From: Verrucomicrobiales bacterium
GTDB taxonomy: Bacteria; Verrucomicrobiota; Verrucomicrobiia; Verrucomicrobiales; DEV007
DNA length: 64,000 nucleotides
Assembly (NCBI GenBank): GCA_016795505.1
Contig: JAEUHH010000120.1
Location: 1-64,000 of the forward strand
Reading direction: 5' to 3'
Shown piece by piece: positions 38,372 through 64,000 of the stretch; within the stretch, counting starts at the first letter, position 1; each line of letters starts with the position of its first letter. The position numbers and the translations under genes are program-made. The notes beneath the pieces are model-generated. The model made no database searches and was not told the DNA's origin. It saw nothing but the letters and a program-made list of their open reading frames with translations.

Positions 38372-38421
38372 TTTCCGATCCAACCCTCTTTGATCGGCGA
38401 TCCAACCCTGTCTCATCGGAT
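38372..38421. repeat. Dispersed palindromic repeat, locus 4
   Basis: Two units in the same direction, CCAACCCTCTTTGATCGG and CCAACCCTGTCTCATCGG, the first preceded by TTTCCGAT. It lies about 220 bp upstream of rfbA. Here the units are direct rather than facing, so this copy would not form the long hairpin seen at locus 3. Confidence 0.7.
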
Positions 38422-44832: not shown

Positions 44833-44901
44833 CGCGATCAAACAGGGTTGCCTCTCCGATCTAACCGGGTTGCTTCGGCGATCTAACCCTGTTCGATCGG
44901 A
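44833..44901. repeat. Dispersed palindromic repeat, locus 5 (three units)
   Basis: Three units: CGATCAAACAGGGTTG, GATCTAACCGGGTTG and GATCTAACCCTGTTCGATCGG. The outer two face each other (AACAGGGTT and AACCCTGTT); the middle one has the CCGGGTT variant. The last unit overlaps the 3' end of mazG: its CTA (44883-44885) is the mazG TAG stop, and the final codons (IPIEQG) are encoded by repeat sequence. Confidence 0.78.
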
Positions 44902-61265: not shown

Positions 61266-63518
61266 ATGCGTCTTGAATCCAAATCCGACCGGATCGAAAA
61301 CCAACTGACGTTATGGGATGATCCCGTAAACTCGCCCGACTCCCTAAGAAGGACTGAATACGCAGATCGAATTCTAAAAGGGTTGGATTACTGGAGCAGA
61401 AGCGAGAGCCTTATCATTGGCTTGTATGGCCCGTGGGGCAGCGGAAAAACATGGTTATTGAATCAATTGCGCAGGAAAATTGAAGCCGCGGAGAACGGAA
61501 TCATATTTTGTGATTTCAGACCGTGGCAAATCCATACCAACGAACAAATTCTAGCGGAATTCTTTCTAAAAATACTGTCGATCTTAGAAGTCAAAGCGAA
61601 TGAGTCGAAACAAGCGAAGAATCGCGCGGGCTTTTGGAAGAAACTGGGACAGTTGACCACTGTAACTGAATTGGGGACGACAGTTGCTGCCGCGACCTAT
61701 TTCAAGGAGCATCCGGAATTGGCGACGAGTCTCGGAGCCTTGAGCAAATTACTTTTCCTTGCGGAGAGTAGCGCAAAATCCGACGGAGAGGTTCCAACGA
61801 CCACGGAACTCCGAGAGCAATTGACCAAGTCCTTTTCAGAACCTGAGGCGCCTCGCATACTCGTAGCAATCGATGACTTCGATCGCCTCGAAGACGAACA
61901 GATTCGGATGATGATCCGCTTGATCAAGACCACGGCAAATCTTCCCAACCTTAATTACATCCTGCTCGGAGATCGGTACCAGATTGCCAAAGCACTTGAT
62001 CCAATTTCGGCAAACTGCGGAGATTTGTACCTTGAGAAAATCATCCAGATACCTTTGACCATTCCCCACTTTTCGGAATCGGAACTGCGGGCCCGACTTT
62101 GGGATGGTCTGGAACTTATCGCGGTGGATTGTCGATATGATTTGGCAGCAAAGGTCGGGAGATTTGAATCATTCTGGCGAGAGTTTCTTCGCACGAAGCT
62201 GACAAACTTTCGGAGCATACACCGACTGCTGACCTTGACCTCATTTCACTCCCGCTGTCTTACCAAAGACGCCTTGCTTGAGGTCGATTTATTGGATCTC
62301 ATTGGCATCGATTTCCTGAGAATGTTTGCGCCTGGGCTTTACCGAAAAATTGCAAACGACCCACCTGTTGAAAGCTGGATCATTGTAAATCGACCATTTC
62401 CGAAAAATGGTGGGGAACGCGTCGATTCGCCCGCTGCCTCTGATTTGATCCATTTGGGTGAAATCGATCCGACGGCTTCATTTCATCTATTGTCACACCT
62501 TTTTCCGAATTTCAGTACTTTGTTACCTAATCTTGTCACCCCAGCAGGGTATAGCAATGACCACCATAAGTATAAGTTAATATCACCAGAGCGACCAATT
62601 TGGAATGATCATTTTCAATCGCTCTATTTCGAACTCTCGGCCAATGCCAATCACTTTCCATCCTCAAGATACAAAGAATTCACCCTTCTCCGAGATCCGA
62701 ACGAAATGATCCGACTGATGGAGGAGTGGAAACCGCGGGGTTGGCGCAACCAACTTTTATCAAGATTAAATGATGATCCTGTCTTTTATAACTCTGATGA
62801 CGACCCAACACCGTTTCTTTTAGCCTTGAGTTCAATATCGGATGATCTTTCAACGAAGGGCTCGCATTTAGAAAGTGAAATAATGATAGCGGATCGGCTC
62901 TGGACCACACTTCTTGGAAAGCTGATGCCAGGGGATCGGCTCCCGTTTTTTCGAGAATTAATACTTCGTTCATCCGGCGTTACGATTCCTCTCCTTGTTT
63001 TGGAACAAATAAGGACAAAAAATAATGCAACATTTTCCAGATCAATTTCAGCAGGTTCTGCTATTCCGACTGCTGACAGATCCGAGATTGAGTCATTAGC
63101 AGATTGTCTACTTGAAGTCGTAAAGAGTCGATTTTGGAAGCGCCTTTTTCCGGTTTCACAAAATGAGTCCTACCGGTTCTACCGAATGGCCAACGCTTTG
63201 GGGCCTGTTCGAGTGGAAAGTATTCTCCGCATTAATTTAGGAACGCTCAACGAAGAAATCGATTTGGACGGGGTCTGGAGTTTGTTGATAGCAGTGATAA
63301 GCGGTCTTGGCCCAGCGCATCGCTTAAATCTTTTCGACCGGGGGACGCTCGAAACTGATGCCAGTAAGCACATCGTTGAGGAATTGCAGCGGTTTGCTTC
63401 GCTCCCGTTCTGGCACGAAGTCTCCGAAGCGAAGGTGCCTCGGGATATAAAGAAGGACGTAAGTGAAGTCGTCTTGGCACACTTAAAACATGGCGTGATT
63501 TCGATTTTTGCCGATTGA
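61266..63518 (+). CDS. KAP family P-loop NTPase
   Basis: A 750-residue KAP NTPase. Walker A GPWGSGKT is at 55-62 and Walker B ILVAIDDFDRL begins at 198. Between them lies a stretch with two hydrophobic segments (about 134-165), as in KAP proteins whose membrane helices interrupt the P-loop domain. After Walker B come YILLGDRYQIAKALD and a long C-terminal part (about 330-750) that I do not recognise. KAP members include the phage-exclusion protein PifA and QatA of the Qat defence system. The gene is visibly AT-richer than its neighbours and uses many A/T-ending codons, a sign of recent transfer. A tandem repeat begins at its stop codon. A defence role is inferred. Confidence 0.86.
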   Translation: MRLESKSDRIENQLTLWDDPVNSPDSLRRTEYADRILKGLDYWSRSESLIIGLYGPWGSGKTWLLNQLRRKIEAAENGIIFCDFRPWQIHTNEQILAEFFLKILSILEVKANESKQAKNRAGFWKKLGQLTTVTELGTTVAAATYFKEHPELATSLGALSKLLFLAESSAKSDGEVPTTTELREQLTKSFSEPEAPRILVAIDDFDRLEDEQIRMMIRLIKTTANLPNLNYILLGDRYQIAKALDPISANCGDLYLEKIIQIPLTIPHFSESELRARLWDGLELIAVDCRYDLAAKVGRFESFWREFLRTKLTNFRSIHRLLTLTSFHSRCLTKDALLEVDLLDLIGIDFLRMFAPGLYRKIANDPPVESWIIVNRPFPKNGGERVDSPAASDLIHLGEIDPTASFHLLSHLFPNFSTLLPNLVTPAGYSNDHHKYKLISPERPIWNDHFQSLYFELSANANHFPSSRYKEFTLLRDPNEMIRLMEEWKPRGWRNQLLSRLNDDPVFYNSDDDPTPFLLALSSISDDLSTKGSHLESEIMIADRLWTTLLGKLMPGDRLPFFRELILRSSGVTIPLLVLEQIRTKNNATFSRSISAGSAIPTADRSEIESLADCLLEVVKSRFWKRLFPVSQNESYRFYRMANALGPVRVESILRINLGTLNEEIDLDGVWSLLIAVISGLGPAHRLNLFDRGTLETDASKHIVEELQRFASLPFWHEVSEAKVPRDIKKDVSEVVLAHLKHGVISIFAD

Positions 63519-63851
63519 TTTCCTGGCGGTGGAAATCCCCTCGCTTTCGTTTGTGAGCCCGTTTCCAGTGTGGAAGTCCCCTTCCAAACCCTTCGATTCC
63601 CGTTTTCGTGGCGGAAATCCTCTCCCAACCCGTTGGAAACCCGTTTCCGTGGCGGAAATCTCCTCCCAACCCATTGGAAGCCAGTTTCCGTGGTGGAAAT
63701 CCTCTCCCAACCCATTGGAAGCCAGTTTCCGTGGCAGAAATCCTCTCCCAACCCTTTGGAAGCCACCTTCCGTGGCGGAAATCCGCTTTCAATCCGTTGG
63801 AAGCCTATTTCCGTGGCAGAAATCCCCTCCCAACCCGGTTCGGAGCCATTT
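63518..63851. repeat. 41-bp tandem repeat array
   Basis: Units begin at 63561, 63602, 63643, 63684, 63725, 63766, 63807 and (partial) 63848, exactly 41 bp apart, with a degenerate first copy at 63518. Each unit has two palindromic parts, TTTCCGTGGCGGAAAT and CCAACCCATTGG, joined by conserved ATCCTCTCC and AAGCC. Copies differ by a few bases. There are no unique spacers, so it is not a CRISPR array. The period is not a multiple of three, so it is unlikely to be coding. Confidence 0.9.
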
Positions 63852-63852
63852 C

Positions 63853-63874
63853 GGTGGGAAAAGGCCTTCCCACC
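63853..63874. other. Hairpin at the array end and gene-free tail
   Basis: GGTGGGAA (63853-63860) faces TTCCCACC (63867-63874) with a 6-nt loop, closing the array. No T-run follows. The remaining 126 bp to the window edge show no supported gene; an ATG at 63992 is too near the edge to judge. Confidence 0.5.
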
Positions 63875-64000
63875 AGCCCTGACTCCCGTAACCGAAAAGA
63901 AAGTGGCCATTTTTTGCAGATTTTTCTCGCCAATCGCGGTGAGATTGGCTCACACTCACCCCATCACCCGTATCCGGGAAAGACGACTATCATGGCTCGC

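Follow-up and report, generated by a model that had tools for sequence, protein, structure and literature searches.

The 41-bp tandem array found near the end of the window (the whole stretch of 64,000 nucleotides of Verrucomicrobiales DNA that was analyzed) forms the 5′ half of a bipartite module, which combines a dyad array of fixed 41- or 42-bp period with a gene located behind it and coding for a helical protein of approximately 240 to 260 residues. This module recurs in dozens of bacteria belonging to two phyla, the partner gene being of the FFDSG family in Verrucomicrobiota and of the DUF6261 family (PF19775) in Bacteroidota. Searches of the literature on DUF6261, 41-bp tandem repeats, and repeats of Verrucomicrobia did not reveal any description of this association among open-licence papers, the single paper found to name DUF6261 being on an unrelated subject.

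Tandem array of the window locus

Reading of the sequence and TRF analysis revealed that the array is real and extends on the + strand from position 63,519 to approximately 63,857, with a degenerate first copy (63,519 to 63,559), seven full 41-bp units (63,560 to 63,846), and a partial last copy (63,847 to ~63,857), as proposed in the preliminary description. The TRF score of the array was 304 to 362, with 83 to 84% matches between copies, and the scores of the other arrays of the window did not exceed 73. Each unit contains the dyads TTTCC-n5-GGAAA and CCAA-n4-TTGG, with axes 20.5 bp apart. Both of the palindromes initially attributed to each unit are present, but they are less uniform than claimed and not letter-exact in all units: TTTCCGTGGCGGAAAT was found with at most one mismatch in six units (63,601 to 63,823), 0.66 matches being expected over the window when up to 3 mismatches are tolerated; two units contain an exact CCAACCCATTGG, and two others a close version of it. 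The additional hairpin reported behind the array, GGTGGGAAAAGGCCTTCCCACC, is indeed present at positions 63,853 to 63,874 of the + strand, at the array end, and is not followed by a run of T; terminator prediction on the + strand of this locus called none in the hairpin or in the array-gene interval. The window array folded better than shuffled sequences (z = −4.95), and a search of Rfam did not match it to any known RNA family. A coding repeat was ruled out, since a unit of 41 bp is not divisible by 3 and chance accounts for the several open frames.

The gene located upstream of the array (61,266 to 63,518, + strand) encodes a KAP P-loop NTPase related to PifA (PADLOC E value of 3e-53). Its TGA stop codon occupies positions 63,516 to 63,518, and the array begins at the next base. 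The gene is AT-rich, as had been noted, with a GC content of 0.467 versus 0.649 ± 0.033 in windows of equal length, and is likely an acquired gene, independent of the array. The link between the array and KAP or other defence genes implied by the preliminary description was not retained, since the genes flanking the module, which are ordinary-looking and include no conserved neighbours, were different at each of the 23 loci that were inspected. Thus, the KAP gene in front of the array is a chance neighbour lying outside the module, and the constant partner is the gene on the other side. Since the array and this gene are what recurs in the midst of different neighbours at the 23 loci, the function is expected to reside in these two elements. 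The suggestion that the array binds a protein or forms a structured element retains its plausibility, backed by the conservation of dyads across dozens of arrays.

The array sequence is present in a single copy in the 6.5-Mb genome, and neither palindrome recurred elsewhere in the genome above pattern controls. Thus, the array is not scattered at many unrelated sites, as would be the case for a simple minisatellite; instead, its architecture recurs before one gene family. Scanning other Verrucomicrobiota for the unit, as initially proposed, led to the detection of this array alone when the exact pattern was searched in 388 genomes of the phylum. This result is misleading because related arrays are alike in shape and not in sequence. 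A pattern scan of genome contigs detected a single distant array whose 41-bp unit is related (locus L022). The L022 contig, CAMAZK010000044.1, is part of a metagenome-assembled genome labelled Akkermansia muciniphila, a name that is probably incorrect, as the genome was grouped in f4 g24, apart from f2, presumed to be the Akkermansiaceae.

Other repeats were observed in the genome containing the window. A 42-bp array of 5.8 copies with the dyad GTGCCGGAGCCTCCGGCAC (L090:17737-17980; G000:C63) has no FFDSG gene near it, and the gene located behind (from L090:18140 on) had the look of a DUF1549/DUF1553-type gene upon inspection by eye. A 21-bp array of 11.9 copies of AGAGGCGATTGCGTTCCTTCG, with half the period of the module, precedes an unrelated open reading frame (L074:4236-4484; G000:C3). 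Short tandem pairs of 21 to 22 bp of the CGATCCAACAGGGTCTGATCGG type occur across the genome (window positions 38,376 to 38,419 and 44,835 to 44,900; L002:16589-16632) and apparently form a separate REP-like family; in 467 kb, 27 of the 71 TRF rows had a period of 21 or 22. A solitary unit-like stretch, AACCCGGCGTTTCTGTGGCTGAAATCCCC, is located just before a possible start codon (L015:1501-1516; G000:C48:9171-9186) and is perhaps a decayed remnant.

Partner genes in Verrucomicrobiota and Bacteroidota

The partner gene of the window array starts at an ATG located at position 63,992 of the + strand and runs out of the window, which contains only its first nine bases (ATGGCTCGC, 63,992 to 64,000), to position 64,783 of contig C3 (L002:5993-6784). 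The window locus thus displays the arrangement that characterizes the module, with an FFDSG-family gene immediately preceded by a dyad array of the 41/42-bp class. The product, P0003, is composed of 263 residues and begins with MARWDFAFFDSGVRFDS; the gene following the L022 array encodes a homologue beginning with MARYGFAFFDSGVRFDS. The AlphaFold model of P0003 is all-helical (pLDDT of 83), and the core of the protein is not basic (21 Lys plus Arg versus 24 Asp plus Glu). ToxN-type endoribonucleases have a mixed alpha/beta fold; P0003 appears to differ from these enzymes, since it had no match in Pfam or NCBIfam, nor to any PADLOC toxin, and its predicted model is devoid of strands. No transposase or recombinase match was obtained either. 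The fold search performed with the FFDSG model did not reveal any known DNA-binding fold, and its best matches (McpS/TorS/PilJ and the DGR Avd protein 8ube, Z score of 8.5) were rejected as being within the chance range for helical bundles.

Searches with the protein and then with a profile identified three paralogues in the same genome, nine homologues in a genome of the same genus, and others in other families of the class, with multiple divergent gene copies and decayed fragments per genome. Carriage by phages or plasmids was rejected, the viral, plasmid, and phage collections searched providing no match. Several proteins lacking the FFDSG N terminus (L040, L043, and L034) end in long poly-serine tails; the C termini of the FFDSG clade are acidic and proline-rich.

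Combination of TRF and self-comparison of upstream DNA revealed an array with a period of 41 or 42 bp immediately preceding 23 of the 26 near-full-length Verrucomicrobiota homologues of the discovery set, with unit sequences that look unrelated to one another. A fresh set was obtained by a later search of the order and of extra regions, requiring at least 500 bp of upstream DNA and leaving out L162, which is the L022 contig again with the same unit. An array with a period of 41, 42, or a multiple and a score of at least 25 was present at 21 of the 27 near-full-length genes of this set, two more genes had a weak one, and no clear array had any other period. The same score was reached by 4 of 788 other open reading frames; of these hits, one corresponds to a stretch of N and two to the same array (about 3, or ~0.4%). 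The difference between the two groups was highly significant (Fisher P of about 3e-33). A few FFDSG copies are devoid of an array, namely, L140 and L142, as well as a single member of each of two close gene pairs, L165 and L168. The latter loci (G1091:C10 and G1120:C414) each contain two FFDSG-family genes 2.6 to 5.2 kb apart, with an array on just one of them. The arrays of the module usually contain 4 to 9 copies.

DUF6261 genes of Bacteroidota are found beside repeats, and this association was the starting point of a survey of that family. In a Tannerella genome encoding 15 DUF6261 genes, 13 had an array of 41, 42, or 83 (41 + 42) bp upstream of the ATG. A draw of 198 Bacteroidota genomes provided two more genomes carrying DUF6261, with arrays at four of five genes, one of them farther off (−600 to −405), bringing the overall count to 17 of 20 genes. 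In Tannerella, an 18-copy array of 21 bp was also observed at L021:6165-6540; its unit, TTTCCGTGGCGGAAACAAAAG, contains the first palindrome of the window, and no DUF6261 gene was seen alongside. In addition to the upstream dyad array of 41, 42, or 83 bp, the DUF6261 and FFDSG families share a similar protein length, all-helical predicted models (pLDDT of 91 for DUF6261), and the same best structural neighbours of the McpS/TorS/PilJ type, with Z scores of 8 to 10 that are in the range usual for helical folds. The families differ in sequence, no member of the FFDSG set matching the PF19775 profile at an E value of 0.5 or less. Alignment of the two profiles by hhalign was weak (probability of 7%, E value of 0.005) and collinear over 192 columns. 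A common descent of FFDSG and DUF6261 is plausible, this evidence being suggestive.

Symmetry, period, and turnover of the arrays

The units are two-fold symmetric in most arrays. The z scores for dyad symmetry in comparison to shuffled units ranged from 1.3 to 8.9 in 27 arrays and from 0.5 to 8.6 in the 13 Tannerella arrays; the mean was 3.4 in the newer set, with P < 0.05 in 17 of 21 arrays, L162 included. In a tandem repeat, any axis is accompanied by another at a distance of half a period, and the dyads thus recur every 20.5 to 21 bp, corresponding to two helical turns. The periods are restricted to 41, 42, and 83 (41 + 42) bp across the two phyla, 41 or 42 bp corresponding to four helical turns. 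Complementarity across the axis was maximal at 5 to 15 nt; the stems comprise approximately 6 pairs and surround a centre of approximately 4 nt in which pairing is weak. Mismatches in the arms displayed no wobble bias (80 G-T and 67 A-C; P = 0.32), an observation unfavorable to selection acting on a single RNA strand, since a strong wobble preference would have been detected. Conservation was lower for the edge copies (0.75 and 0.79) than for the inner copies (0.86), the usual sign of homogenisation by exchange. A shared sequence core, GCnTTC-n-GAAnGC, was tried and rejected as weak (2.45 mismatches versus 3.29 in shuffles).

The array is invariably located 5′ of the gene, and many arrays stop close to the start codon, several of them within 24 to 62 bp of it. 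Rho-independent terminators between the array and the gene are not general, since they were predicted at 4 of 55 loci versus 1.4 in shuffles. A strict TTTG/TAnnTTTG promoter was found upstream of the array at two Tannerella loci (L097 and L106) and between the array and the gene at one, and no promoter position was consistent across loci. The spacer displayed a weak enrichment in TTTTTCTTG, and the 8-mer TTTTTCTT was present at 5 of 23 loci, for a maximum of 3 in shuffles.

The array sequence changes much faster than the protein, the unit sequence differing at almost every copy of the module: units may be only 63% alike for proteins with 93 to 94% identity, the value for shuffled units being 42%. 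Comparison of L135 with L137/L138 and of L152 with L172 showed that one half-unit was 85 to 95% identical and the other at the background level (33 to 43%), the replaced half-unit being palindromic in both versions. Such clustering by half-unit was significant (P < 0.05) in 5 of 25 compared pairs, which are not independent, and is a tendency rather than a rule.

Mode of action and relation to known systems

We tentatively favor a role of the array at the DNA level, as an array of binding sites in phase with the helix that functions together with the product of the gene behind it and has a private sequence at each locus, a reading that has in our opinion slightly less than an even chance of being correct. 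The DNA level is favored because the rigid four-turn period is found in two phyla, without wobble bias in the arms or a general terminator. The array would work as double-stranded DNA, with dyad axes two helical turns apart offering symmetric sites on the same face of the helix. Such sites would allow a protein acting as a dimer or multimer, in the simplest case the product of the gene located behind, to assemble along the array, either to control expression of the module itself or to form a nucleoprotein complex, the address being private to each locus. The similarity of the units within an array would be maintained by unequal exchange or gene conversion, while different arrays drift apart. 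Several observations count against this DNA-level reading. The proximity of the array ends to the start codon favors transcription through the array. The extent of unit divergence between loci encoding nearly identical proteins would be surprising if the array were an operator recognized by sequence alone, except if the specificity resides in one dyad. The non-basic core, the lack of a known DNA-binding fold and of a consistent promoter, and the existence of a few array-less copies are also unfavorable.

Alternatively, the array may be transcribed, providing every 20 to 21 nt a hairpin bound by the protein in a manner similar to type III toxin-antitoxin systems, in which the toxin is neutralised by a repeat RNA encoded ahead of it, or acting as a structured leader controlling translation. 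The short distance separating several arrays from the start codon and the promoters located upstream of the arrays of L097 and L106 keep such a role in contention. The constant 5′ position of the array, stems and centres of hairpin-like dimensions, the folding of the window array, and the presence of up to 15 paralogues per genome also fit this RNA-level explanation, as does the conservation of monomer length in ToxIN-family antitoxins, in which sequence and copy number diverge (PMC5086642). This alternative is nonetheless rather doubtful in view of the scarcity of terminators, the sense strand devoid of wobble bias, the predicted strand-free fold, and a 41/42-bp ruler better explained by DNA twist. 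We consider it improbable that the gene and its array form a selfish mobile cassette, with the array as an end, target, or recombination site, since P0003 has no transposase or recombinase match, the arrays of different copies are unrelated in sequence, and none was found in viral, plasmid, or phage collections, even though random surroundings, divergent multiple copies, decayed fragments, and the abutment of the window array on the KAP stop codon speak in favor of this explanation. A neutral minisatellite lying by chance between two genes would account for homogenisation within the array and for degenerate edges, which are typical of tandem repeats, and unrelated arrays do exist in this genome, including the 42-bp array at L090. 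This explanation is very improbable, being already contradicted by the fixed period, the dyad symmetry, and the almost systematic association with a single gene family in two phyla versus ~0.4% of control open reading frames.

The module resembles type III toxin-antitoxin systems (ToxIN, CptIN, and TenpIN) by the presence, immediately before one gene, of an array of tandem repeats, a feature by which these systems are recognized (PMC5086642), and by the conservation of unit length despite variation in sequence and copy number. It differs by a 41/42-bp unit containing two dyads in place of a known pseudoknot unit and by the absence of a general terminator between array and gene. The module does not fully fit this class because two hallmarks fail, the terminator and, by prediction, the fold. 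Operator, iteron, and centromere-like arrays, such as replication iterons and ParR-parC, similarly place phased repeats ahead of a gene whose product is a candidate for binding them, with sequences that differ between systems, but replication or partition genes were not seen near the module, which has up to 15 chromosomal paralogues. REP/BIME palindromes associated with RAYT transposases (PMC3733652) are also extragenic palindromes tied to a protein family; unlike these elements, the module is not dispersed, has a strict tandem period, and lacks a transposase domain. A REP/RAYT or dispersed repeat was ruled out, since the array occupies a single genome site and P0003 does not match Y1 transposases. 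A CRISPR or TIGR-type guide array was also ruled out, as whole units repeat, rather than a constant repeat separated by varying spacers.

More speculatively, and with a probability that we consider low, these modules may represent an unreported class of orthogonal protein-nucleic acid modules present in two phyla, in which each paralogue would recognize or be checked by its own array. The unit would then combine a dyad shared by close relatives and read by the protein with a second dyad that may be entirely replaced while retaining its palindromic character, providing the locus address in the manner of a system of conflict or incompatibility. Repeats of this type are easily written off as minisatellites or mistaken for open reading frames. 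One shape, consisting of two dyads per 41 or 42 bp located before a gene, is nevertheless associated with two families of uncharacterised proteins, in two phyla, with a sequence that is rewritten almost everywhere. The association offers the first functional handle for DUF6261 and its verrucomicrobial counterpart, in the form of a testable pair, each protein with the array preceding its gene. It also provides a natural collection of protein-nucleic acid pairs that seem to be private, with up to 15 of them in one genome.
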